Shown here piece after piece: positions 8,701 through 56,300 of a stretch of DNA of 64,000 nt. The stretch is from Diprion similis (Eukaryota; Arthropoda; Insecta; Hymenoptera; Diprionidae). The DNA lies in assembly GCF_021155765.1 (NCBI RefSeq), contig NC_060106.1:10051501-10115500 (forward strand). The letters run 5' to 3'. How positions within the stretch are numbered: position 1 is the first letter of the stretch; each line of letters starts with the position of its first letter. The notes beneath the pieces were generated by a model. The model was given only the letters and a program-made list of their open reading frames with translations. It made no database searches and was not told the origin of the DNA. The position numbers were made by a program, and so were the translations under genes.

Positions 8701-11023
8701 TGAACATAGAATTCTGTTTACCAGACGTAGCCACTTTAATGAAGAAAACAGATGCAGAAATCAATTCCTACAACACACTACCCATGATTAATAAGGTAGA
8801 AAAACTGAAATTATATTTCCTGCTTATCCATGTTGGAATAATCAAATGATATTTATAACAGTGTTTACATGAACATCCAATTATTATCTAACACACTAAA
8901 TATTTTTTACAGTTCGTAGCTGTAACCCGGGAATTGTTACTCAACACAACGCTGATCCTGCAGAGAATCTCTAAAGTGATGAGAAACGATGACATAAGGG
9001 ACATGAATGATGTATACTTTTCGGATTTTTACAAAATACATGTGGATTCCACTAAATCAATTTGTGATTCAAATGCATGGCATGACAGGGAAAGAGGTAT
9101 CGAAGCCAGGCGATCCCTTGCTATCCTAGCTTATACCGCATTAGTATCAAACTATTTAAGTGAACATGTAGCAGGAAAGATACCTCTAAGCTTTTTCAAC
9201 GATTCCAACTACGAAAATTATATCAAACAAATGAACAGTTACAACAAATGGCCAAACAAAGGCTGTGAATTTGAGATGCTTGTACTACTTCTGGAATTTG
9301 TTTCAACAGTTGGTTACGTGGTATGTGTCAATATAAAATCCAAATAATTAAAATATTTTCGTCCATTATATGCCATTTTGAACTTTGCCAAAAAATATGT
9401 ACCTAATTTAACAGAGGCTCAAAAGAAACACTATTATATTCGCGAACCAAATTTAGAAAAAAATGTATTACATTATGCCTGCTAAATTACTACTTTGTAA
9501 TTACCGCTAATTGTTGCAGAGAAGATCACACCAGTTCAGTGGACTCATAATAGCTATCACCAAGCTTTTAATCAATATAAAAGAGAAACTCATCCATAAT
9601 GAAAGAGGCATAGAATATACCTTCAAAATCTTGAAAGAAATAATTTTTTCGCGGCCTCTTCTGATCTGCTATAAATACATAACTGAACTTCTGATGACAT
9701 TCAGTCGATGCACAGAATTTTGCAGAAAACTTTGCTCTGGTACAAGTAGGTAAAATATTCTTTATAATTCATTTGCTCAATTTTTTGCTGCATAAGTAAA
9801 TCAAAAGTCCATTATAAATTCAAAACAGGCCTCTCATGATTGAATCCTAATCACACAATGATATGTTGCAGGCAAGACAGCAGTTACAGTTTGGAAAGAT
9901 GAGCTGCATTTTACTTCAGGTATAGTATTTAGCTTCGCAATTAATAAAAATAGTAATGCAAAAGTAGATAACATTTCACGTTTAACTTTACTTATGACTT
10001 TCTGACACAATTGCACACTGCATACTGATGTTACTCCTATTTCTATATCATACTATTTCAGATGCCTGCATCATGCAAATATACACCGCACAGCTAGAGG
10101 TTTCGCAGCCTGATTCTATTTCTATGGTTGACATTACCTATGCACTGGTTAGTTTTGTATACAATATCCTGTCTTTAAATGACATACCATGGATTTGTCA
10201 ACCAGGATATGCATGTAAGTGTTCAATGAAACTATTTGAGTTGACCCTCAATTTTTTATGTAAATGCTCAAAAGTGAATCTTGACGAACCAGTACAAAGA
10301 CAGAATTATAATTACATCGCTAGTTTCAAAGACCCATCCAACGGGTTTTATTTGAGTAGCGAAACTAGCCAAGCTGCAGCTCACAATACCAAAAGTTGTT
10401 CAACCACAATATGTTCCAACTCGGAACAATTAGACAAAAACATCAAGATCCAATCCAAACATAAGCAACTGATCGCAATGCGAAAAGGTATTATGTTTCT
10501 GTGCTTCTTATCCACCCGAGACCCAGATTTCATTATTAGATTATCCGAAATTCAAGACTCTTTCAACCTGTTTATGCGGCAAATCGAATCTTTTGATGAT
10601 CTGCAACTCAACGAGACAGAACGTAAGTAAATTTATATTTTTATTGAACTTTTATTACATTCAGATTTTGGAAAAATCACGGTATCGTATAGATATAATG
10701 GTGTTACTAAATTTTTCTATAGTAGGGCAATCTTCTTTTTAGAAGCTGCTTTGATGACTGTGAAATCAACCTTTGTCTATGATAAAACTACATCTTTTGA
10801 AGGACGCATTGACAAGACTCCAAAATTCGAAGGGTTCAAAACACATTTTGAACTGAGAGAAAAACTTTCTTGTATGAATACACAACAAGCTGTAAAGTTA
10901 TTTGATAATAGTGTATCAACTAATCAGGGAAAGCCTAATAATTCTTCATGGCTGTCAGAAGTTATTTCCAAAAAGCAGACAATCAGTAGGTCAATTTTCG
11001 AGGGCAGACATACTGCAAAATAG
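5776..11023 (+). CDS. ATRIP: ATR-interacting protein (ATRIP / mus304 homolog)
   Basis: ATRIP is the obligate partner of the checkpoint kinase ATR and brings it to RPA-coated single-stranded DNA. There are twelve exons: 5776-5973, 6100-6577, 6778-7022, 7924-8051, 8143-8243, 8333-8473, 8650-8795, 8913-9320, 9520-9745, 9872-9919, 10062-10622 and 10743-11023. All join in frame to give about 986 residues. The acidic N-terminal motif DFNDEDIEEMDIVASQ matches the RPA70-binding checkpoint-recruitment motif of ATRIP. Exons 3-4 encode the coiled coil (ENQKLLADCLTKEGEALFLR and onward) used for oligomerisation. The helical remainder is poorly conserved, as usual for the family. The exon 3 donor (GTTCGG) is weak. 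Exon 9 is taken to end at 9745, because the next GT at 9750 would create a stop. Exon 10 is only 48 bases. Confidence 0.9.
7167..7905. repeat. Inverted-repeat (MITE-like) element in ATRIP intron 3
   Basis: The two sides of this 0.9 kb intron form imperfect inverted repeats. TTTAAGAACAATGTTTATAC near 7378 pairs with ATAAACATTGTTCTCAAA near 7555. CATAAATTGAAATGGACT near 7342 pairs with the AAATCCACTTTAGTTTATG block near 7578. The possible outer ends are AATCAGTATTCCAG near 7170 and CTGGTATTCTGATT near 7890. The arms include runs of C/T-rich sequence. No open reading frame of a transposase is present. Exact ends are uncertain. Confidence 0.5.
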
Positions 11024-29200: not shown

Positions 29201-32200
29201 TTTTATACTGCGCAACTAAGATCGGGGATGGAACACAAAACCACGGCCATCAGTTTACTCAGCTGCGTTCAGAACTCCTCAAGGAAAAAGAAAACATGCC
29301 AATACTCATTCCAGAAGCACCCATAGTAAACCCCAACGGTGCTTTAGGAACTCCGCCAAGATTGAATTCGGATGGAGAAGCAGATCATGAAATTGAAGAG
29401 ATCCTTGATCACGGTGCCAGTGATGATGGTGAGTAAATTTAATTATCAACTAAACGATTCTGGCTGCATTGCTCTCATTGAGTATATGGCTAATTGCGTT
29501 GTACTGAAATAGGTGCTGATGATCACGATGACCAAAAATCAGAAGAGTATGAAATGGATATGGAAACAAACCCAAGTGACTTTTTAGAACTGACGTCCAT
29601 GGTCACTGATGATGTGGACGAAGGTGACTCGCTCAATGTTCCAGGGACTAATAATGAATCTGGTATATTTCAACATACCTCAGAACAACACGAAGTTTAT
29701 GTCTGTTCTTTATGCAACAAAGCGTTTAGTTCGAAAGGACACTTGTCACTGCATGCTAGAATCCATGTTGGAGCAGGTGATATAGTTGGAGAAAAGGTCA
29801 TCACTGACGATCATACATCATACAAAAGGCCATATCAATGCGATTTATGCAACAAATCATACTCCACTGCGAAACATAGGTGGGGTCATGTATCTACTAC
29901 CCACAGGTGAGCTAATTGCCTGATCCATGTGAACACTGGCGTAGAAATAGTTTTGTATTCATACAATTTGCTCATTATCTGAAATATTTTTGTGGATTAG
30001 AGGAGAATTTTCCTCAACTGTAAATTAACATTCATTTCTCAGTCATTACTTTGTAATCTTTGGATCATTTCAAATCGTTATTATAATCATGTCATTTTAT
30101 TTACCCTAGAGGACATCCAGCAGTGACTTGCAGGTACTGTTCACGGATTTACTCGACAAGAACAAATTTGGAAGAACATATAAAGTCGCGGCACGCAGGC
30201 TTACCTCCACCTCCTGAGTTGCCGTTACCCTATGTTCAACAAGATAATAAATTTCAGTGCAAATCATGTCCAAAAATGTACACAAATGTGACAGATCTAA
30301 ACAAGCACAGTCGAATATGCGCTGGTGAACGAAAGAAAGAAACTTCCAACAAGATTTCTATGCAAAAAATGACCAAGACTGTTATCGACACATCTGACTT
30401 GTCAAGTTTAGATTCTGACGACGAAGGCAAAGATTATAGGGATGCAAAAGCAAAACTGGCAAAAAATCCCCAGTTAACAATTCTTAAACAAGCCTTGACA
30501 AAAAAGGAGAATTTCAAACGAGATTTTGACGAACCAAGAACAAACCAAAAACCGAAGAAAATATGTAGAACAGGTAAATTTGTCAAAAACGTAACATATT
30601 AGTTCGTTTCAATTTCTTTTCATTTCTTATCCCAATTCTCGTACCCTTTAATGTATTGTCTTCTGTTTTAATATTAATCACATTTTCAACTTGTCATATA
30701 TGATATAATAGTAAAAAGTTAACAGCAAAATTATATTACCTAACAGATAGCAGTGAAACAGACGGACAGAAGAGGTGGTATTGTGAGACATGTCCTCAGA
30801 GCTTTACATCTGTGGATAGTCTTAAAGAACATGAACTCACTCACGATGCTGACAAACCCTTTATTTGTATTTTGTGTGAAAAAGATTTTTCATTGAAGTC
30901 ATCACTAAGTAGGCACATTGTGGCATCTCACGGCGTTGATCCCAGTCCAATAATTGATAGTGATAAATGCCTGAAAAGATCTGCTGCTTTACAGATGTCC
31001 AACAAACCAAAAGAAACAGTAACCAATGAGCGCAGTAGGGATATTTCAGATTCCTCATTGTCCCCTCAGGTATATTATAGATGTATTGAAGTTCATTTAC
31101 TTAATTGCAGCTAAATGTAGCTTTAGAAGTCGATGAAATTCACATTTTGTCGATGTTTATTTAATACTTCGCATGAACTTTTACAACTTTTTACATTCTT
31201 TGTCGTTGTTCAATCCTTTTTGATACTTGGTAGATAATAGTGTTTACAATTATATTCCTATGATTTATTTATCGAATTATTACAGGGTAACCCTGAAAAT
31301 GAATCTGAACATGAAAGTAGTCCAGAGAACATGATTGAAATTGAAACTGTTTTCGTCTGTGAAATCTGTACTCGTGATTTCAATGATCGTGCTTCACTGT
31401 GGTTGCATATTCGAGCAACTCACAAAGAATATGCAGCATTTGCATGTGGCGTGTGTTTAAAAATTTGCTCTGATAATACTCAGCTGCTCAATCACGTCAA
31501 TATGTACCATGGAGGATCTAAGTTACAAGTTTCTGAACAACGAAGGTATGATTCTTTTTTTATTTAACTTTAAAGTACTATCTAACTGAATATGTGCATT
31601 GCTTCTTTCAGGTACAGTTGTACAATTTGCGGCAGGCAACATGATTCAAGAAAAAAATTGATAACACATGTCTCAATACACAGCGTTGACCCTAGCTATG
31701 ACCCAGCCAGTTTTGTTCAGCTCAATAGTAATTACTATAATGAAAATTTCAACAGTAACGAAGCAAATGATCAGACAGTAGAGTTTGATGGTGACGAAGG
31801 TGAAAGAATGGATTGCTATATTTGTTACAAGTCATTTCCTAGTGAAGATCATCTTATACGCCATCAAAGAAATGCTCACAAGGTAAAATTGTATGGTATG
31901 AAACTATGAAATATGAACAAAGTTATTTTTCGACTTTTGCAATGCTGATTGACGAACAAAGTTTATTCAGCATCTATTATAAAGTCAAGATTATCAATCA
32001 AGTTATTTCAAGGGTAATACATTAATTTCTTGGGAATTGTAAGTTATACAAGGTGACCCAGGACTATCCTCCCATAGGCTACCAATGTATTCCGCGTGAA
32101 TGAAAATTTGCGACTAAAACATTTCTCATAGGAAGATTGTCTTCTGAGAATTACAGCTGTTTGAAATTAGCTAATCTAGTAGCATCTTGTGGTAAAGAAC

Positions 32201-35200
32201 AGAACGAAAACAGGGTTGATGGATTGTTGTTTGACCGTTATGTACTCTGCCGCTGTCCTAAGCTATCAGATGATACGGCATTGGCCAATTTCAAACGGCT
32301 GTAATTCGCAAATAAAAAATATTTTATCAAAAGTAAAAAACGTTTCTGTCGCAGATTTTCATGAGAACACAGTTGTAGCCTTTGGGAAGGTAGTCCTGGG
32401 TCAGCCTGTATACGTGAATCTACCATAGTCATAAAAATTATCGGAACTAGTTGGGCACAAGCTTTGTCATCAAATTTGCACTTTGCTAAGATCGATAAAG
32501 CACTACTAAAACTTGTGATATCAATGTGATCAAATAAAATAACTGTACTTTGTAAAGAGCATTGATTCTATTGAGTGGTATGACCAATACCAGTTCGTTA
32601 TCGTTTTATGAACTTGTCAAGTAGTTTTTCAGAAACATCACTTTTTAAGAATCATACCATTCACGATAGCATAATTTTACAATATCGTTTTTTATTTTTG
32701 TGAATTATTCGGTTCATATTTATCAGTTGGGATACTGATTCCGATATACGTTTACATCAGTGAAATTGGAAACGATTAAACTTTTCACTTCTTCTTTCAG
32801 TCTGAACCACTGGCACCAATTGGAGAAAATGCTGGCAATGGAAGCGGGACTGGTTCTGTGAGTGGTAATGGAAATCGAGCACAGTATCATTTATTTTTCG
32901 TATGTGAATTATGTGGTAGTTCTCACCCAAGCAAATGGGAACGCTGGCTTCATGTCAGTAGTATTCACAGCAATGAGCCTGCTATTAGAGTAAGTTTTTA
33001 GTTTATCATGTGTTTCTTCTCTTATGGCATAGTATTCATTTTCAAATAAGTTCACGTTTTGTTTTTTATTTCATATTATCTTGAATATGGATGTTGGATT
33101 TGCAGATAAGATTTATTGAAAACAAAAGTGTAGACAATTTTGATAACATAATTACAGGCAGGTTTCTATTTTTTAACACAGTAGGCTCGTGAAAATTTGT
33201 TTGAGAAATAAATTTATTATATTCGGTTTAGTTTACTTTAAAAATGTGATGGAAATATTATTTTTTATAGCAGAAACGAAATCATGGTACTAATTCAAAC
33301 GTTTTCTCTTGCGTTTAGTGTGAACGGGACACCTGTGGCAAAATTTTCGCTACTAGATCATTGCGCAATGAACATGTGCAACATCATTCTGCTCAAGGCG
33401 CTTCTCCGAACACTTGTGAAATATGCGGAAAACTTTGGGGTAGCCGAGTCGATTATTGGAAACATGTGATGGGCGTTCATTCGGATACCGTGCCTTTAAT
33501 TTGTGGTGTTTGTCTGAAGGTTTTCCCTGACGTGATTCAACTAAGTGCCCATGTAAAAGCTAAGCATTGGCCTCTGACAAACGGAGATTTTAGTTGCGAT
33601 ATTTGTGGCAGACCATATTCGAACAAGTCGAAAATGTCCAGACACAGAAAAATTCATGGGCTGGATGTAGATAGTTATATAAATAGCAATGTTCTTGAGT
33701 CAATTACCGACGCCACCAGGATTGATTACATCATTCCTGATCCAAATTTGAGCTGTGAAATGTGTTCTAATTTGAAATTTGCAGATTTAAAAGAATTATG
33801 TTCTCACAGACGAAATATTCACGGCTTGTTCCCGTGTGATTTATGTAACAAATATTACGGACGGACATCTCACTTATGGAAACATGTTAATCGCGTGCAT
33901 AAAGGACATGAGGATGTAACATGCAGGTACTGTTCGAAGACAAGTGCATCCAAGGAACATTTAGCTGCCCATATTGCAAAGATTCACAGGTATGAACCCG
34001 AGACTAAAAAAGAAACACGGGAATCGATGAGTGTCAAATCACCAAATCCAGATGACGAAACTCCTCATCATTGCGAAAAATGTAACAAAGGGTTTCATAA
34101 ACGGTATCTGTTACGTCGTCATATGAAAGGCTGTCAGAACTACCGAAAAGATCCTGGGGCGCTACTAACTCGATGCAGAGCTTGTGAAAGGATATTCAAG
34201 GATCGTGCCAGTTTGCAAAAGCACATAGAAAACCATCATAGTACATACACGTGTCACCTCTGCAATGAAGAAGTAACATCAAAGTTAGGTATTATGACTC
34301 ACAACAGAGTTCATCATATGAACCATCCTGACTTGACTTGCGATCATACCAACTGCAAGAAATTATTCAGAACCAGGGAAGATCTGGAATCTCATAAAAA
34401 GGATCACAAATATCACAATACACCAAATGTCTGTGATTTTTGTGGTGACACCGTGGAAAATAAGCTCAAATTAAAAATGCACATTTTATCCCTACATAGA
34501 AACGAAATCGGTGTTTCTTGTGGAGTTTGTTTGATTCCGATGAAGGATCCCAAGGAATTAAAGAGACATGTAGAGGACGTTCATAATCATATTTTATCAA
34601 AGCCAAATACTTGCAAAGTATGTGGCAAACAGTATGCTTCTAAGTGGAAGGCTTTCGATCATACGAAAAAGTGTCATGGAAAAGTATTCCGGACTTGTAA
34701 ACAATGTCTTGCTGTCTTTACCAAAGATGAGGCACTGAGAAACCATTACGCCAATGTTCACAATGTTCCAAAAGACCAGTTATCTGGCTTCAATTATCGA
34801 TTAGAGGCGTTGAGTGGAAAACCAGAAGACTATGAACCAGCAAACTTACTTGTTAAAGAAGAACCGGAAGATTTAGACTTTGAAGAAGATGCATGCGATG
34901 AAGATTCTAGCGAGTTGAAAAGAAAGAGACCTTTAAGTGACACGTTTGATTGCGATCTATGTCACGAGATATTTTTAAATGATGAAACACTGACCCAACA
35001 TTGTCAAAATGTCCATAACATGAATCCTCTTAGGAATTCAAAAAAAACGAAAACTGATTGTGTAGGTGCTAAAAGAAAAATGAGGGAGAGAGAAAACTTT
35101 GAATGCAAGAATTGCGGGAAACAGTTCTGTACAAAAACTTTGTTTTGGAACCATATCAATGTTTGCACAAAACGTAATAGTGTAAACAAAGATAGTAATA

Positions 35201-37437
35201 ATAGTTTTCCAACCTCAATTCTTGAAGCGCATTTGAAAAATAACAATCAAATAAAAAAAGAAGAACCTGACCCTATTCTGAACGAATCAAATTTGAATAT
35301 ACCAGACTTCAATTTATTTGAGGACATAAACATGCAACTTTCAGCTCAAAAACCTATTCCTGACCTAATGCCCATATCTTCGGTAAAAGGAAATTCAAAT
35401 AGTAAGTACCCACGTAAGGATTCTAGAAAAGTTTACGATGAATCAACAAATACGGAGTGCGCATGTGAAGTTTGTGGAAAACAGTGGCCAGCGAAGAAAC
35501 ATTTATGGCAGCATCTGATTCGTTTTCACAGAGCAGAAGCAGCCGTTACCTGTGGCGTTTGCTTAAAACTTTGTCAGACTTACGAGGAATTAGCAAATCA
35601 CTTGACAGCAACACATGCAGCGATTCTGACTGGTGAAGGAAACAACTTCACATGTAAAATATGTGGGAGATATCACAATGCAAGAAGTAAATTGTGGTTG
35701 CACATGAGTATTCATATCAATTATCATGGTATCGAGTGGTGTCAGAATTGCCAACAAGGATTCGAGGACAGAGAAAAATTGACTGAGCATTTGGAAAATT
35801 GTACAGGAAGACAAATTGAATTTGATGATCATAGTAATGACATAGATGTAAGTGTACAAAATGAAAATGATAATGAAGATAAGGGCAGTCTGATAGATGA
35901 AGATAATTCATTAATGGAAGAAACAGAAGAGTTAGATTTTGAGTCTGAGGCAGAAGATCATGTAGCAGAAAATCACGAGGACAGTAACACTGATGTTTCA
36001 GACAGTGATGCTAGCACCGGAAATACAAGCGACGAGGTAGAAGACGACATTGACAACGAAGAAGACGAAGATGATGGCGAGGAGGTAAATGAAATAGATG
36101 ATGAATCTGGCACACAGAGTAGAGTCACGGAAGATCTCAGTAGTGATTCACACAGCGAAGACGAGGATTCTGAGCATTCGGCTGATGATGTATCTGAGCA
36201 TAGTGATAATGATTTAAATGACAAAGAACCGAATAATGTGAGTCTTCTGAGTGATAGTGATGACACAAACGTCATGGATACTGAAGATTGTGACGAAAAT
36301 AAACTTCAGGAACAAGAAAAAATTGTTGATGTAATTAAAAATCCAAAAAACAAAACAGAGAATGAAGAGGGAGATTACAATTCTCAAAAAGTCGAAGAGA
36401 GATTGCAATCACACAATGTTGATGAAAGAGAATTTGAAGAAAGACCTTGCGAACTACAGAATCAAGCACTTTTAAAAGAAGAGCCTGGAGATTATTTAGA
36501 CGATGAGGGTCCGCCTATTTTAAGTCCAATGGTACCATTACCTGTAAAGACTGATATGGAAGATGAGGAAACAAATCAGTCGGATACAGTGCAGCATAAG
36601 TTGAGTCCAATAGTAGTAACAGCTGCAAGTTCTGAAAGCCCCACAATGGTGGGTGAACTGGACCAAATTAGAGATGAAATAGAAAAACGTGAATCGTCAT
36701 GGCCAGCTCCTAATTCGATAGAAGATGAAGATGATGCCAGTACAATGGAAAATACGAATATATCTACGAATAATTTGGCAGAAATTTTGGAATTAAACTC
36801 TGATAATGATCAAGAAAGTGCGGAACTCCAAGCTGAAGATGAAGGTGCAGAGGTTGAGGATGAAGTTTCTGAAAATGAGGAGGATTCTGGAAATGAAGAG
36901 GCTACCTTGAATGATGTAGAAGACAGATCAGATAGTGAAGACCATAATGAAGAAACAGTAGAACATAGTAATGAGCACCAGGAAGATAATTTGGCAATGC
37001 CAAGTGCAGTTGACATTACAGAGGATGTATGTGATGAAAATTCAAACGAGGAAAGTGCTGATATGGAAGTAGTAGATAATGCAAACACTGTGCAAATACC
37101 CGATTTAGATGGAACTGTACTTATGGTTGCAAATGATGCTGATGGTAATCAGATTCTAATACAGCGTAATGTTTCTGATTTTCCCAATGAAGATTCGAAT
37201 CCCGAAGTGACAGAATACATTTTACAAGAAGATAACGAGTATGAAATAGATAACTATGATGTATCTTTAAACGAGGAGGATGAAACGCAACAGTCTGACG
37301 ATAGTTCCAAGGTCTCGGAAGAAGAGAAGAATATTGAATGCGAAGAGAATTGTATGGAAACTGAAGATAATACAGAAGCAGTAGAAGACGGTCCGATATC
37401 TATCATCAGTGCCAAAAGAAAAGTGTCAAGGACGTAA
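23241..37437 (+). CDS. Large ZAD-domain protein with about 32 C2H2 zinc fingers and an acidic tail
   Basis: Predicted nuclear DNA-binding protein. I do not recognise a specific ortholog. The exons are 23241-23375, 28956-29093, 29221-29428, 29513-29906, 30110-30573, 30747-31069, 31286-31545, 31612-31882, 32801-32989 and 33319-37437, all in frame, giving about 2166 residues. Exons 1-2 form a ZAD (zinc-finger-associated, dimerising) domain with paired cysteines CRLC and CVCYRC, residues about 10-85. Fingers 1-11 are spread over exons 4-9. Fingers 12-32 lie in the single 4.1 kb last exon. Several fingers carry a CGVCLK signature, and multi-finger blocks are repeated within the protein. After about residue 1620 the chain is mostly Asp, Glu, Ser and Asn to the end. 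Intron 1 is 5.6 kb. AATAAA follows the stop at 37451-37456. Confidence 0.93.
24700..24960. promoter_or_regulatory. GC/CpG-rich island with G-quadruplex motif, intron 1
   Basis: About 260 bases much richer in G, C and CpG than anything nearby. At 24887-24911 five GGG runs are separated by 1-5 bases (GGG-tcccc-GGG-t-GGG-tc-GGG-tc-GGG), which fits the canonical G-quadruplex pattern on the plus strand. It may be an alternative promoter or enhancer of the host gene. The motif is seen; the function is inferred. Confidence 0.4.
26776..27235. repeat. Fold-back repeat built on TTCCGAA / TTCGGAA
   Basis: The left half carries several copies of forms like AAAGTTCCGAAAG. The right half carries their complements, such as TTTTCGGAACTTTG. 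The outer arms match: AAAAGTTCCGAAAGCGCC near 26803 against GGCGTTTTCGGAACTTC near 27209. The whole block therefore reads as one large imperfect palindrome of about 460 bases. No coding capacity is seen. Confidence 0.55.
32045..32412. mobile_element. MITE-like non-autonomous DNA transposon in intron 8 of the ZAD gene
   Basis: About 368 bases with long terminal inverted repeats. The left end TATACAAGGTGACCCAGGAC matches the right end read backwards, TATACAGGCTGACCCAGGAC, and similarity continues for roughly 65 bases. Inner segments also pair (CAGCTGTTTGAAATTAG with CCAATTTCAAACGGCTG). A TA dinucleotide at each edge suggests a TA target site of the Tc1/mariner type, which is an inference. There is no transposase frame. 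Confidence 0.75.
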
Positions 37438-46893: not shown

Positions 46894-49255
46894 TTATGTA
46901 TAATTTTCATAGCCATCTGGAATAAAATTGTTTGATAGCGATTTCATGTAAGACAGAGAATTATCACGGCTCCTTTGTTTTTTTCTGTAGGGAACAAACC
47001 GCTTGTTTCCATGGCTCTTTGTATTGTTCAGTTTTGCGCAATGCTTTTTTGACAGTAGGTGCTGAAAAAAGATTTAATCAAAAAATTGAAATTCTAATAT
47101 TATAAGTTACTTAATTAACACATTATACTGCAAAGTACCTCGTCATATTGGCCCTGAGAGTTGAATAACTTGTTGCAAATATCACATGTCAGGAAGGTAC
47201 TTTTTGTTGGCAAGATGGGTCCTGTGGCAATCGGTGGTGTTATAAAACTGGCAAGTGATGCCTCTCTCTCATTCCACCCACCTAAGCATCAATGTAAGGT
47301 CAACACTATCTATCTATCACAACCGTGTATACACAGTGTTATGTGATAATAAATTAGCTTGAGCGCTACATTCATGCCACAAAAACAGTACAATTATATA
47401 TACATTTATTTTCATTCTTATTCTCGAAAATCCCTAATTGTAAGATGTTATAGTCTTAACTATAACGCATCATGTTTGAGTACTTAAATGTGAGAAATGG
47501 AACAGGTATATGAACTACCATGATCTGATTAGTAAATTGCTTTAGAAATGAATTTAAAGCACTTCATAAAGATTTTCATTTCGAATAATTCTTGGAGGAC
47601 ATTGTATGCAATAGTTACATAATATACAATACTAATCTTGATAAAAATGTTTGAATCGAGAAATTTCACATTAAATGTAGCCCTAAAGTTGAAAGGAACT
47701 CTACAATATGGAAAGATTGTGTATGGCTTATGTGGCTCAGTTTAATTGTACAAATGGTATTTGCATAAAAAATCTATAAGTTCAGTAGTAAATTTCTTGC
47801 TAATCTGTCATTTTATTTTGTTTTGCATCAAATTTCTTTCCATCTATCTAAATATTGATATCTTACTGTCATGAGAGTTATAAATAGCAGTTTAAATCAA
47901 CGATTATATACAGTCTTTTCCTTAAAGCTAGACATGCATGCAAAAGCATTATTAAACGAAGCAACGAATAGTAAAAAAAAAAAAAAAAAAAAATACAATA
48001 TTAACATAGCAGGTAACAGTGCAATAAATAAAGATTAATCTCTATTGAGTAACTATTGTTGAGCAGTGTACAATAAAGAGTTAATCAACGAAGAACTAAA
48101 AGTGTATAGAAGAATACGTAACAGCAACAATAACAACGTAAGAGGAAACAGTGCATTAAATAAATGTTAATAAATAATATCAAACAGCAGCGTTTGATTA
48201 GTGTTGAGCAGTGTACAATAAAGGACTAAAAGTGTCTATTAGAATATTCTATAGAAACAATAACAATGTACAAAGTAACAGTGCATTAGAGAAATATTAA
48301 TAAATAAGATTAAATAAGATCGTGGGATTATTGTTGAACAGTGTACAATAACGTGTTAATTAATGAAGGACCAAAAGCGTCAATTAGAATATACCATGCT
48401 CTTACATAAGTAAAAAACGAACGTGATCAAGAAAAGAAAGCAAGCAATAACGAAAGTAGTCGAGCTGAACACAATAATTGTGACATTTCGCTCTTCCACT
48501 TTGTCCATGTAAAGCAATCGCTTACATCGAAAACTATCAGGCTTGGAATTTTTCTGCGAATGTGGTTTATTACCTTTTGCAGCCTTTTTCTTGTGACGGT
48601 TGCCTATGAAACAAAATTAAAAATATTTAGTACGTTGGAGAAATTATATTGTGCCACTAATAACAGAGCACTCTACCTAGGGAACTATATACAATTCCAA
48701 ATTGCTATATGTTATATGTACCACTATATACTCGCTACTTTTTTATATTTGAACTAATTATTTTCAATATGGTATGATTCATTGTTGAATTAGGATTTTT
48801 CAAGCAAGATGAAAAACTAAATATTTATATACCATTCAGATGAGTCTGTAGTTGCTGGATTGAATTCAAGGAAACATTGCACACGTTGCACCTCAGCCCA
48901 TTGGTTTCTTGATCCTTAGTGAAAGCAACTTTGGTATTATCCAAGGTGGCCATGATAGCCTTTGATTTTACCTACAATATTGGGAATGTTTAATAAATTA
49001 TTATTGACTATTTTGGATGACTTACATAGACTAAAGCTATGTTCGAGTGAAAAATTATAGGTGAACCTGCTTGGCATGTCGGGCACCCTGAAGATGTGCA
49101 TCCAGAACTGTTTGGCTGGTGAATGAGAGGTCACAGTCTTCACAGCGGACATGTGGTTTCTTTGTAGGTAAATTTCCCATTATGTTATCTACCACTGCTT
49201 TCGTTACCGGATCACTAATGGGTGTATTTATTACATTTTCTGTAGGTACTGCCAT
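46894..49255 (-). CDS. Three-finger U1/matrin-type zinc-finger protein (ZNF346/ZNF385-like)
   Basis: Probably an RNA-binding nuclear protein of the JAZ type, judged from its fingers. The minus-strand exons are 49255-49067, 48971-48833, 48603-48574, 47281-47139 and 47061-46894, giving 222 residues. Three fingers of the C-x2-C-x12-H-x5-H form are visible: CEDCDLSFTSQTVLDAHLQG then ARH, CNVCNVSLNSIQQLQTHLNG then NRH, and CDICNKLFNSQGQYDEHLLS then KKH. Exon 3 is a 30-base microexon that supplies the last histidine of finger 2. An ATG at 49279 is in frame, but 49255 has the better context (AAG before it, G after it). Reading the last exon with one extra A gives an early stop; the actual seven-A run carries the frame on to 46894. 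The exact ortholog is uncertain. Confidence 0.82.
48011..48405. repeat. Three tandem copies of a ~131-base unit in an intron
   Basis: The landmark ACAGTGCA recurs at 48016, 48148 and 48278 (spacing 132 and 130). In each copy GAGCAGTGTACAATAA or a close form follows 50-70 bases later, then an ACTAAAAGTGT-like stretch. The copies are diverged. They lie in the intron between exons 3 and 4 of the U1-type zinc-finger gene. Confidence 0.75.
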
Positions 49256-51473
49256 CTTGAAAATGCCTTTTATGTGCATGTAAAGTAAGATCTGTAATGA
49301 AGTGCGAATTCAGAATGAACATCAACAGGTGAATGTCTCTTTTATTCAAAACAAAATAAATAGCTGACGAAAATGCTGTGAAATGGATTCTGTTTAGAAT
49401 TATCTGTGGTATATCATAATTCTGAAGGAAATTGAGTACAAAAATAAAAATCAGTTTTTCTGTATTCAAAATATAATAAGAGATTCATGACCGAATCAAA
49501 GCAAAATTAAGAGCATCAGCTTTTTATGAATCATAGTGTGCGTGAACACGTAGGCAAAGACATCTTCAATTGCAATGTGCACAATTTGTGCGCATCATTT
49601 TTTTCCAACATTTATAATACACATATAATCACAAAATCCATGTTTTGTGTATTCCAGCTAACCTTCTAGTTTGGGATTTCGGTTGATATATTCAATTTTT
49701 TGAGAGAGATGAATGCAATAGAACAACAGTTGGAGCGTAGATTTGAGCGTAGAGTTCATCGTAAGAAAAATATATCTTATTGTACTTATTGCTCACATGT
49801 TGCATTTATTGTTAGGTGAGGGTAAACATAATTTTCGAGGGAAATCTAACTGTCATGGCATTTTGCAATTATATTGTCGCAATACCAGAGCTATGGTGAA
49901 ATGATTTTGGAAAACGATGAGCACTTGGTATAACGAATAACCTAAAATAATTTGATTATGAATTGAATGGATTTAAAAATTGAGGGGGTACACGTTTTGG
50001 TTTTCCAATGTCGTGGAGAATATTGGTTAAAAGTTTACTGTGAGACATGATACATTGGTTTATACACTTTATTGCGCGGTTTGAACGAATTTCATTACTT
50101 GTGCATACTTATTTCTAGGATGATGCCTCCGTCCATTCAGGGTACTATAGGGTGCTGCCTAGTACCTACTACATCAATACCTACCGCAAAACAAAAATTC
50201 AAACGTATGGTTGTACACACGGGTTGTACGCAATGTTGTACGTGTGTGTACGGCGTTGTATTCAGCGTCAATGGATCCAGTAAAATTTCATTCGGCTGAA
50301 GCGTTGGGTTGAGTGCCATAGACTCTACGTTGAGTGTCATGTCCACAAAAATCTACTGGACAAATTAGAATCTAATATTTTTTCGCAATCGTTCAACTTT
50401 TTCGTTCCGATTGGTGAAGCGATCGTACGATAGTTAAAGGCTCGTTCACAATATAATCGCTGGCAAACTTAAAAATATGTTAATATTACGGTTAGAACGA
50501 TTTTGAATGAATGCCTAATTACGCTGTTTGAAAGGAAATTTAAAAAATGAAAAGTGGAGTGTAAATTTGAAAAATGTAATTTTTCTAACTGTATTTTTAC
50601 TCCCAAAGTGCCGGATACTGGACGAGGTATACGGCCACTACGGCTGCATCGGACTCCCACAGACATCCGGTTTTTTCGTCTAGTTAGCTGATAAAAATTA
50701 CATCCCAAAAGACAATAAAGAGTATGTAAACTGGCAGTATATTACTGAAATTCATGTAAGCTTATTTCATGCAAATATAGCCAATAATTGTGGCTCTGTA
50801 TACTGCTGTTATTAATCAGCAGTGTTCAATGAGGCCGTACGGGATAGGATCGACCAATCAGAATATTCGGTGGGTACACACTCGATTTGCATTTGCATAT
50901 AGCTATAGTTGGCTGTGGAAAGATATAGTAGCAGCCATCTTATATTTTGTGTTGAAGAAAAACATTATTTAAACAAATGTTTCGCGATATTCCGTGAATC
51001 AGATAAATGACAGGCGTGCGCTAGATGAAGCGTAACTTTTTTACCACTAGCCTGGATCACCACATTAGCAAAGGTTGGTCCGAGACCGTTTAGTTTTTGT
51101 TGAGCATTGAACCCCCGCCGTGATCCGCGGAAGAGAATCCGGTTTTAGCGTCAAAATAATCTGCCGCCTCTTGTGCCGTTTTAAAAAATAGTTTGCGGCA
51201 CGTTGAGTGACAGTTTCTGGACAGATGCAGAAATTTAATGTAATAATATATCATTGCGATAGTTTTCTCGTGAAAAAGTTATTATGCAATCAGCTGTTCA
51301 CTTAGTTCTCTTCTGTCACTTGTCAAAAATAAATGTCAAACTATTAGATCTAACCTGATGTGTCTTTTACACCGTTGCCATATCTGCTGAGTGTCTTATA
51401 AAACGTCGCTAATTTTCATCACTTCCTACTAACATCGATAGTCTCACCATATCCTTGCGTATATTTAATTCAG
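49256..51473. other. Divergent intergenic region and upstream part of the polyQ zinc-finger gene
   Basis: 2.2 kb with no supportable coding exon. It ends in a strong 3' splice site: TACTAAC, a perfect branch-point consensus, at about 51427, then ATTTAATTCAG ending at 51473. The transcript of the next gene therefore has at least one upstream exon, which I could not place. A small hairpin (GGTACTA...TAGTACC) is present near 50,141-50,166. Confidence 0.5.
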
Positions 51474-51485
51474 CTGCGTCGTATC

Positions 51486-51818
51486 ATGCAGGTGGATTGG
51501 TACGTGGGATATGAGCAGCTTGTCAAGCGCAACCTGACTCTGCTCCCCCATCAGCAAACCGCCCAGCAACCGCAGCCCCAGCAGCAGCAACAGCAGCAGC
51601 AGCTGGTTCACCCCCAACAAGCTGACATCATGACATCGATGTTCGAACAACAAATTAAAAGCGAGCCAATGGGATTTTATTCGGTTGCCTCAAGCCGTTC
51701 AGATGGTTCAAATTCAATGGTCAATTTGTCGGATGACCGAGAAGAGCTTTCTCAGCAAGAAGCTCACTTGCAGCCTCAACAGCAACAGACTCTGCAACAA
51801 ACGCTGCAACAACATCAA

Positions 51819-51892
<74 letters not shown>

Positions 51893-52736
51893 GCAAGGTC
51901 AGCCGGGACCTCAGGTTCAGCAAGGTCAAGGAGTACCGCAGACAGCTCCGACGCGTCAGTCAACGGGCCAACAAACAGTGAAGGAGGGATCGCGTTCTAA
52001 ACCGCAAGCCTGTAAGGTCTGTGGAAAAGTCTTATCTTCAGCATCGTCGTACTACGTTCACATGAAGCTTCATTCGGGAAATAAACCTTACCATTGTACC
52101 GTTTGCGAGGCAAGTTTCTGTCGCAAACCGTACTTAGAAGTACACATGCGAACCCATACAGGCGAACGGCCGTTTCAATGCGAATTGTGCCTAAAACGAT
52201 TCACCCAAAAAAGCAGCTTGAATACCCATAAACGGGTTCATACCGGGGAACGACCTTATGCCTGCGATATATGCCAAAAACGTTTTGCTGTCAAGAGCTA
52301 CGTTACTGCTCATCGCTGGAGTCATGTAGCAGAAAAACCTCTGGTGTGCGATCGATGCTCACTTACGTTTACATCTAAGAGCCAATTTGCGATCCATATT
52401 CGTACTCATACTGCGAGTACTACGTACGAATGCAATATATGTGGTCGCACTTTTGTACGTGATAGTTATCTTATTCGGCATCAGAATAGAGTACACCGCG
52501 ATTTGAATCAGGGCAGCTCGAACCACAATCCGACGACTCCCCAAAGTACCGGTGGCGGAGGCTCTACGGCTGGATTTGAAAGTCCTGTCTGTGATCTGCG
52601 CTACAGCGAAGGTCCATCGTCTTTGGATCCGTTGGGGGGAACAAAGGGTGGCATCGCCGCCGAAATCGCTAGCCTAACCAAGCAAAATAGCTTACAGCTA
52701 CCTCTTCCTCTACTTCACCCGCAGACAACCAACTAG
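51486..52736 (+). CDS. PolyQ C2H2 zinc-finger transcription factor (possibly datilografo-type)
   Basis: Predicted sequence-specific transcription factor of 416 residues in one exon, starting at ATG 51486. The N-terminus MQVDWYVGYEQLVKRNLTLL is followed by a glutamine-rich half with 27 consecutive Gln. Six regular C2H2 fingers occupy about residues 174-339. The first two are distinctive: ACKVCGKVLSSASSYYVHMK, then YHCTVCEASFCRKPYLEVHM. From memory this array resembles fly datilografo (dati), but I cannot confirm orthology. The frame is open back to the 3' splice site at 51473, so the true start may be in an earlier exon. The UAG stop at 52734 is followed in the same frame by 118 codons of protein-like sequence. 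Confidence 0.9.
51816..51896. repeat. CAG/CAA microsatellite encoding Gln27
   Basis: 27 consecutive CAG or CAA codons. The CAA interruptions should limit length instability. Long leucine and alanine frames on the other strand and in other frames are by-products of this repeat. Confidence 0.9.
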
Positions 52737-53093
52737 TGTTTAGATACCAGCGCGTCTCAGCCCTTGCAATTGCAACAACCTCCACAGCAAGTAGCGTGTT
52801 CTGCCTCGGCGTGTACGCCGTTTACACTTAACCCGCCACTGTCGCACGAGCACACCACACCACAGAGTGTCTACCAAACGACGGGACTTGCTACTATGGA
52901 TACGGCGAGCTCTCGCTTCTATTCCCATATTCCTTTAACTCCTTCGGAATCGCATCATCACACGCATCATTCGCATCAGCTCCATAGACCTATTCCTCCA
53001 CCTGGTCTTCATCCTGCGCTTTATCTCTATGCCCAATATAGCAATACCAGTGGTCCTTTGGCATATCCTGAGTATACCCAACCCAGCAATTGA
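52737..53093 (+). CDS. In-frame C-terminal extension after UAG (readthrough or alternative-splice candidate)
   Basis: Directly after the UAG at 52734-52736 the same frame stays open for 118 codons and ends with TGA at 53091. The encoded sequence is rich in Pro, His, Ser and Gln, like a transcription-factor tail. Examples are LQLQQPPQQV, IPLTPSESHHHTHHSHQL and LHPALYLYAQYSNTSG. Base composition matches the upstream coding exon and not the AT-rich DNA beyond 53,400. Two explanations are open: programmed stop-codon readthrough, known for many insect genes, or an alternative 3' splice site. A pyrimidine-rich CCTCTTCCTCTACTTC tract with CAG and TTTAG acceptor-like ends surrounds the stop. Confidence 0.6.
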   Translation, partial: CLDTSASQPLQLQQPPQQVACSASACTPFTLNPPLSHEHTTPQSVYQTTGLATMDTASSRFYSHIPLTPSESHHHTHHSHQLHRPIPPPGLHPALYLYAQYSNTSGPLAYPEYTQPSN

Positions 53094-53115
53094 AATTGAG
53101 TTTATGCTAGCATTA

Positions 53116-53382
53116 TACAATGCCACCTCGTTATATCGCGGGCTTCGGGGCTATGGAGGAGTAGAACCACAATATAAATAATTTCCCTACTTCGTGCTGC
53201 GCTGTAGCCATAGGCTGGCCCACTGCTCACTAGCGCACAGTCGCGTAGTATGGGTTGGGCTGCATAGTAATCAAGTAAATGAAATAGCGTAATGCGCACG
53301 AGCGGTTGGTAAGGGAATAAGCTTGGAGGAATATTTACCAACCGCGATATACCAAGGCGCGATATATCGAGGTGGCATTGTA
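53116..53382. mobile_element. MITE-like element, 267 bases, TA-flanked
   Basis: The left end TACAATGCCACCTCGTTATA and the right end read backwards, TACAATGCCACCTCGATATA, are almost identical over about 27 bases. They begin and end at TA. The interior has no open frame and only weak internal pairing. It starts just past the last stop codon of the polyQ zinc-finger gene. Confidence 0.7.
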
Positions 53383-56300
53383 CTCAATTCTGATGTTGTT
53401 AGTTGATGCCAATCATGTTCTCAAAAATATTATTCTTGTTTAGATTTTTTTTATTGGGCAGCTACGTTGTTTGGAAGAAATAGATTTGCAACAGACTATA
53501 CAAAACTGACTTCCTAATTTTTCAAGTATACTTTAGCAATCTGCGATTAAATTTAAACAAAGGGTAACGTGTAAATAAAAAAGTAGTCATTTTTTTTATA
53601 TCATACTACGAGATCTACGAATAAGGCCTTATTATAATAATTGTTAATGTTTCAAGAAATTTTTTTTTCTTTAAATACAACTCTTGTTCAAAGTCAAATT
53701 GTTATTACGGAAATTTTGTATAGAAACCTTAACTTCGGAATACTTTTATCAGCTCGACTCTTACATGCTTAAGAATTTTAAAAGTTCCTCTTATTAATTT
53801 TCCACTTATTGAATGGATTGAGCAGTGTATCAGAGTAATATGGTCAAAACTTTGTAGTCAGATTTAAACTTGTCAAAAATTCTACTCTATTTTTAAGATG
53901 TAAGAAATCGATAAGAGAAATTAACAATGACTATAGATTGCTTTATTATTTTGTATAAGTGTCGGATAGTCTAGTAAATTTTATTAGACTTTACTCGCAC
54001 TGCTTTTGCGTTTTGCGACATTATCTCCATAGCACCTATAAACAACTTGGATACAGAAGTTTTACTTGTTGAAAGTATCATATAGATATATTTGGAATAC
54101 ATTCAGTTAACCAACTGTTTAGCCTTAAAGTTAATTTTCTACACACATACATATTTTGTACATTGCACTGCTTAAGGTCGTCAATAATTTTATCCAAAAC
54201 GTGAAACGTATCTTTCACAAAATAATGGGCTAAATTTTATCTTGAAAACGTAATGTCCCCATTATATATTTGAACACATTTATATCTTTATAGTTCCAGA
54301 TATTTTCGTGTTGGTCAAAGATGGTCGAATATTTTAGTTCCTATGGAATCAACTGTCGACAAAAACTGCAACAGTGAAAATCAATATTATGATTTATGAA
54401 AAATAAATAATAATATCATTGATAACAACAGTTGATAAATAAGTATTAAAATATGTAAGCACGCTCGAATAATATCAGTGAATAAAAGTCAAGCTAAATA
54501 TAATTATTTCGAAATTTTCTTTACATGTGTCCATGTCAAAAAAAGAATATCCAAAACGACTCATTTTTTGCCTGATTATTCAATATTTGATTTAAGTAAT
54601 ATATTTCTTTAATATTAATATGATATAAATTTGAAAAGATTTTTTGAATGCTAGCATAAACTGACTTAAAAAAGAACTGGTCGCTTCCATAACGTCAGCA
54701 CGCTTCTTTTAACTTTCCCTTAACATACCACATCTGCGACTACATAATAAAAATATCATCATACATATTTATATTATATTCTTAAAGAGTTTTAGTCACT
54801 TGAATCTGTGATATAGATAGTAATTATTGTCTACAAGATTGAAACATTGGTTTACTATTTTAATGTCAAAAAGAAAATGAATTTCATGAAGCGGTGTAGC
54901 TAATCGACCAAGCAAGAATTTTTGGTCTCTACCGAAGGTGTTTGGTAGACACCCTACTATTACTTTTAAACACACAAACGAACACACGTTCATTCAGTAG
55001 CATACTTGACACTTCTATACTAGTGGGGCTGATGTACACAGAGTAGTCATGGTTTCTTTAGCTTTAGACGCTTCATGGGCTCTCTTTGTGCACACTGTGG
55101 GTATACAATATTTTTCGCAAAACGAAAAGGATATTCCTATAAGGAAATAAAGTTAGCTTGGTATACCACGACTTTGAACTTTCATTCTGTCCCATAGGCG
55201 TACTTATTTTCTACATATCGAAGCTTGTTGTAAAGAAAATATGTATATAAAATCAATTAATGAGGATGTTATGGCGGGGCTGTTAATTTGAACACTATTA
55301 GACTTAGTTTAATAACTAACACGGCTTAAAACAAGCAGAGGAGCCATGACAATCGCGAGAATGCCCGTAAATATTAATCGCGGTTAATTGGGTAGTGAGT
55401 TGGTACAATAACTTGTTACTATTTATCAATAAGTAATTTTGAGTAACTATAAAAAAAATTTGTATTAGTGTGCCTCGAACAATTAGGTCTGTTTCGGCAA
55501 TTTAGTTGCAAACTGCGTGTGTATGGCCAAGGCTTTCAATTCCATGAGAGATGGAGTCATCTGGCAAGACTGATTACTGGATCATAAAATTTGCAAAAGT
55601 AAGAATATGAATATAGAAAGAAGATGAATGATCTTTATATTGGCTAGTCAATGTGCAGCTCTATAAGACAAAGTACTACTATGCTGTGATTAAAGCCTAT
55701 ATGGACATGCCCACGCAGACCCTAGCTAGTGATATACGTTATAATCTATTATTAATATGTAGCTAGTAGTAGAACTACCTAAATTTTCATATTAATTGGT
55801 CGGATCTGAAAATGTTTTAGGTAACACGTTTATCTAATTACATCCAAAACACACACATCGTGGTTGGAAGATATTTGGTAATACTGATCATTTTAATAAT
55901 AAATCTCTAGGAATCTTTATTCTGGCAAACATCAAAATAATATGTATTTTTAATAAAAAAAAAAGAAAAGATAAGGTCCTTTCTTATAAAGAGCACTCGG
56001 ACCAAGAAATTCTGAAAGGCTTTTAAAGCTATATCTGAAGGTCAAGATTAGTATGTTGGAGATTTTGTTAATAGAAGAACAATTATTTATTTTTAACTAT
56101 TTGCTCTGTGAAATATAAATATTTTATTTAATATACTTGCTTCTAATGAGTTTTTAAGTCGCTGTAAGCTTTTTAAAGTATCGCAGAAGCAAGAAAGGCA
56201 AAAAATTCAACTTTCCAACCGTGAAAGCTAAGTTTGTACATAGTTTACATCCGAAGTGAAATAACAAGATATTTACAAAGTTTTATTTAAAGCAATACAT

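Follow-up and report, generated by a model that had tools for sequence, protein, structure and literature searches.

Stop codon readthrough in insects

Hundreds of insect genes are known to undergo translational readthrough of their stop codons. The closest described case is the Drosophila dfr/vvl gene, which codes for an intronless transcription factor reported to be extended by UAG readthrough, with insertion of Gln at the stop, to carry a disordered tail of 286 amino acids; the same account gives 75 out of 703 fly transcription factors as predicted to be read through (PMC8417969). The dfr/vvl stop is described as UAG-C and a stem-loop as promoting its readthrough (PMC13170385). In bumblebees, 851 readthrough candidates are reported, of which at least 306 are estimated to be functional (PMC7826183).

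A gene of Diprion similis coding for a zinc-finger protein, found in a stretch of 64,000 nucleotides that was analysed as a whole (the window), is a new candidate for this already known phenomenon. Like dfr/vvl as published, it codes for a transcription factor with a UAG stop followed by a long in-frame tail rich in Gln, His, Ser and Pro, with no intron seen between the two open reading frames (ORFs). The two differ in the DNA-binding domain (POU in dfr/vvl, C2H2 fingers here), in the length of the tail (286 versus 118 residues) and in the surroundings of the stop, UAG-C with a stem-loop in the fly gene and UAG-U with no predicted stable structure in D. similis. Readthrough of dfr/vvl is described as proven by antibodies and peptides, whereas the present case is known from its DNA sequence. 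The candidates reported from Anopheles and Drosophila (PMC5100048) and from bumblebees (PMC7826183) share with it a coding-like second ORF in frame 0 in which no good 3' splice site was found and whose coding character ends at the second stop. Those candidates are presented with multi-species codon-substitution evidence and a conserved stop, in contrast to the one genome compared here.

Organization of the locus

The plus-strand ORF at positions 51402-52736 has its first ATG at 51486 and is closed by the TAG at 52734-52736. The ORF list and Pfam describe its product (51486-52733) as a protein of 416 amino acids in which a Gln-rich part precedes six C2H2 zinc fingers. The assignment to the C2H2 finger class comes from zf-C2H2 (PF00096), matched in six stretches with E=7.4e-28. 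A CAG tandem repeat occupies positions 51819-51895 inside the coding sequence. Upstream, the segment 51427-51485 contains, as seen by eye, a TACTAAC followed by a T-rich tract and a CAG whose last base is 51473, 12 nt upstream of the ATG, and is probably the acceptor of an intron in the 5' UTR. Viral contigs gave no homologue of the whole first ORF, of the tail, of the finger block or of an Arp5-like gene, and a collection of genome contigs gave none of the finger block; these negative results carry little weight, as neither collection is expected to include insect genomes. Two finger peptides gave no match in a full-text literature search.

Other finger-like sequences are found in the window. 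The segment 33319-37434 is an uninterrupted ORF of 1372 codons coding for numerous C2H2 fingers and, after them, a very acidic region rich in Glu and Asp. ORFs with zinc-finger-like Cys/His motifs, recognised by eye, lie on the minus strand upstream of the gene (48825-49309). Apart from these, a unit of 130 bp is present in two tandem copies with 78% matches at 48091-48351.

The TAG, presumed leaky, stands on the plus strand in the context AAC TAG TGT. The second ORF follows in the same frame (52737-53090, 118 codons) and, according to the ORF list and the coding models, is presumed to code for a carboxyl-terminal extension. It ends at the TGA 53091-53093, with a further in-frame stop one codon after it. 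The coordinates and codon counts given for this arrangement in the preliminary description are exact. The predicted tail is rich in Pro, Ser, Thr, Leu, Gln and His and devoid of Lys. Its sequence had no match in Pfam up to E=1, and the single match in the PDB, with E=4.2, is taken as chance. The GC content of the tail is 0.51, close to the 0.55 of the 204 nt before the stop, in agreement with the base composition like that of the upstream exon noted previously; it is only 0.27 at 53385-53740.

A transposon-like element begins 22 nt past the second stop, in the presumed 3' UTR (53116-53382). It has inverted ends of 25 nt that are 96% complementary and a TA at both outer edges, and may be a MITE whose insertion duplicated a TA target. 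The first AATAAA after the second stop is found on the plus strand at 53574-53579 and is a possible polyadenylation signal.

Coding character of the tail

Gaps between stops that reach 118 codons are absent among the 2197 gaps of six stretches taken as noncoding, in which the longest has 98 codons, and only one of 2000 shuffles of the segment 53094-54500 opens with 118 open codons. The open length alone is nevertheless moderate evidence for coding, because the tail is C-rich and its frame stays open in 103 of 5000 dinucleotide shuffles.

Coding character was scored with a 3-periodic order-2 model. Of 13 other exon stretches listed in the window, 11 were used to train it and two were excluded, as their translations terminated in a stop. 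When each training stretch was left out in turn, its true frame scored 0.03-0.29 bits/codon and was the best of the six frames in all 11 cases. For the tail, the score of the claimed frame is +0.10 bits/codon, against -0.27 and -0.36 for the two remaining forward frames. No noncoding window of 354 nt matches this score (0/4256), these windows being poorer in GC than the tail. Among dinucleotide shuffles of the tail itself, none of 2000 reaches its coding score and two of 2000 reach its frame contrast. The three codon positions are strongly distinct, C making up 0.40 of the first, 0.41 of the second and only 0.19 of the third positions, where T amounts to 0.40. These results, together with the amino acid composition, bear out the earlier view of a protein-like, Pro/His/Ser/Gln-rich tail. 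The loss of coding character beyond the TGA that was then perceived is also found, the tail frame scoring -0.70 at 53094-53450, a segment partly within the transposon-like element, and -0.68 at 53385-53740.

A plain codon-usage model had low power, scoring the zinc-finger core at only -0.02, and was superseded by the 3-periodic model. Its score for the sense frame of the tail (0.080) is reached by none of 5000 shuffles and is below those of two reverse frames, 0.149 and 0.166, which carry 10 and 5 stops, respectively. With the 3-periodic model, one antisense frame of the second half of the tail, interrupted by one stop, reaches 0.39 versus 0.10 in sense, which we interpret as a shadow of CAT and CCN codons. 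In this one genome the coding nature of the tail is well supported by its sequence.

Coding character is already present close to the TAG. The segment from the TAG to the sole in-frame ATG of the tail (52737-52895) scores 0.10, which 32 of 2000 shuffles equal or exceed. Over the first 17 codons the score is 0.24 (reached by 76/2000) and the frame contrast is weak (reached by 162/2000). Separate translation from a downstream in-frame start was rejected as an explanation of the tail since coding character precedes the ATG. The early onset argues only moderately against a late splice acceptor.

Sequence context of the stop codon

The stop context favoured in readthrough is TGA-C, which is enriched among such genes and not required. 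The stop found here is TAG-T, without a C after it. No stable RNA structure is predicted in the 100 nt after the stop (z=+1.03, the stability being equalled or exceeded in 175 of 200 shuffles), and the segment 52634-53093 likewise folds less stably than most shuffles (z=+1.08). The sequence CAGCAGCA is absent from the interval that begins 250 nt upstream of the TAG and extends to the second stop, its nearest copy ending at 51895. Context, structure and CAGCAGCA thus lend readthrough no extra support. Searches with Rfam at the gathering threshold gave no match in the window. Incorporation of selenocysteine, which uses UGA, was discarded at this stop as the codon is UAG. Among the Anopheles candidates, 9% are reported to have RNA structure and about 23% to have CAGCAGCA, both being described as enriched and not required (PMC5100048).

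Splicing and other alternative explanations

The preliminary description considered that a 3' splice site in the pyrimidine-rich stretch just before the stop might bypass the TAG. Such an acceptor-like stretch exists on the plus strand at 52674-52724, composed of a CTAAC (52674-52678, by eye), a pyrimidine tract and a CAG ending at 52724. With approximate insect-like matrices, the exon start at 52725 scores 3.22, a value reached by 4.6% of the AGs in the window. It lies upstream of the TAG, however, so that splicing to it in frame (phase 0) retains the stop, and either of the remaining phases leads into another frame that stops early; the bypass fails as originally formulated. Alternative splicing from a donor in the same or an upstream exon to an acceptor past the TAG, which would leave the stop out of that mRNA, could share the CTAAC and pyrimidine tract through a later AG and could draw on a donor in an exon farther upstream. 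Against it, the best acceptors listed between the TAG and 53000 score 0.24 (52980) and -0.75 (52866), the AG of the TAG itself is below the listing cut of -6, and no donor from 51400 to 52740 exceeds 2.53. Of 227 in-frame GT-AG pairs that would splice out the TAG, the best has a sum of 1.4, which is matched or beaten at 90 of 100 control points within an uninterrupted ORF of 4.1 kb. Elsewhere in the window, pairs of neighbouring ORFs have best sums of 4.7-11.6 in 8 of 11 cases and of 1.3-2.4 in the other three, which are perhaps not adjacent exons. Among same-frame ORF pairs parted by a stop or a short gap, the TAG pair ranks 16th of 19, with a sum of 1.0 in that search, and two pairs resemble exons around an intron (9998-10627 with 10631-11020, sum 10.2; 31241-31564 with 31586-31906, sum 10.4). 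In the former only a TAA separates the ORFs, with strong splice sites on either side, and this stop probably lies in an ordinary intron, a useful contrast to the TAG pair. By the approximate matrices, convincing splice sites to skip the TAG are absent, and we regard splicing past it as improbable.

The main rival to readthrough is that the tail belongs to an ordinary protein of ~535 amino acids and that the TAG arose through an error of one base in sequencing or assembly, or else represents a nonsense allele, recent or still segregating, of the individual sequenced. A single interrupted ORF is expected to leave a tail that is coding-like in exactly the upstream frame, as observed; many sense codons lie one base from TAG, and the usual readthrough features are missing at the stop. 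Other long ORFs of the window are nevertheless intact, as exemplified by the one of 1372 codons at 33319-37434, and the published prediction of readthrough for 75/703 fly transcription factors (PMC8417969) gives this explanation the better base rate in an insect. The choice between the two rests on such base rates because the comparison is limited to one genome, and an error or nonsense allele is judged the less likely origin of the TAG. A-to-I editing of the UAG to UGG (Trp) in part of the mRNA is also conceivable in principle, the target A being found in a U-A-G triplet, a context favoured by ADAR enzymes. No strong duplex is predicted at A52735, however, whose pairing probability is 0.08-0.30 in five folding windows, and editing is reported to have had no part in the testable readthrough events of fly cells and embryos (PMC3840789); it is given very little credence. 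Equally little is given to a noncoding tail that is open by chance. A C-rich sequence has few stops, as the shuffles that stay open illustrate, the plain codon-usage model is weak and an antisense frame beats the sense frame in the second half of the tail, but the coding score attained by no shuffle and the strongly unlike codon positions oppose this explanation.

Proposed readthrough and its implications

It is thus fairly probable that the 118 codons beyond the TAG code for protein and that the TAG acts as a leaky terminator. The preliminary description proposed such readthrough, and it stands as the best single explanation, with the coordinates, the open tail and its protein-like character correctly recognised; readthrough itself is inferred from this arrangement, and the features usual at such stops are absent. 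Most ribosomes would terminate at the UAG to yield the factor of 416 amino acids, while some would insert an amino acid at this codon (Gln where this was measured in the fly) and continue as far as the TGA, adding the 118-residue Pro/Ser/Thr/Gln/His-rich tail. The DNA-binding fingers would be common to the two isoforms, and the long one would gain an additional activation-type or partner-binding tail, which is probably disordered. The sequence of this one genome shows the open frame, its coding character and its end at the TGA; passage of ribosomes over the UAG, its maintenance by selection and the function of the tail are inferred. A more tentative proposal is that this UAG readthrough is conserved and regulated although neither the favoured following base nor a nearby stem-loop is present, so that the leakiness would stem from another signal, be it the nascent peptide, a structure farther away or a factor acting in trans.

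If the extension is real, an annotation that stops with the first ORF lacks 118 of the ~535 residues of the long isoform, more than one-fifth of it, and with them an apparent activation-type tail. The gene would then be a case of transcription-factor readthrough without the usual cis-signals, useful for asking what else makes stop codons leaky.
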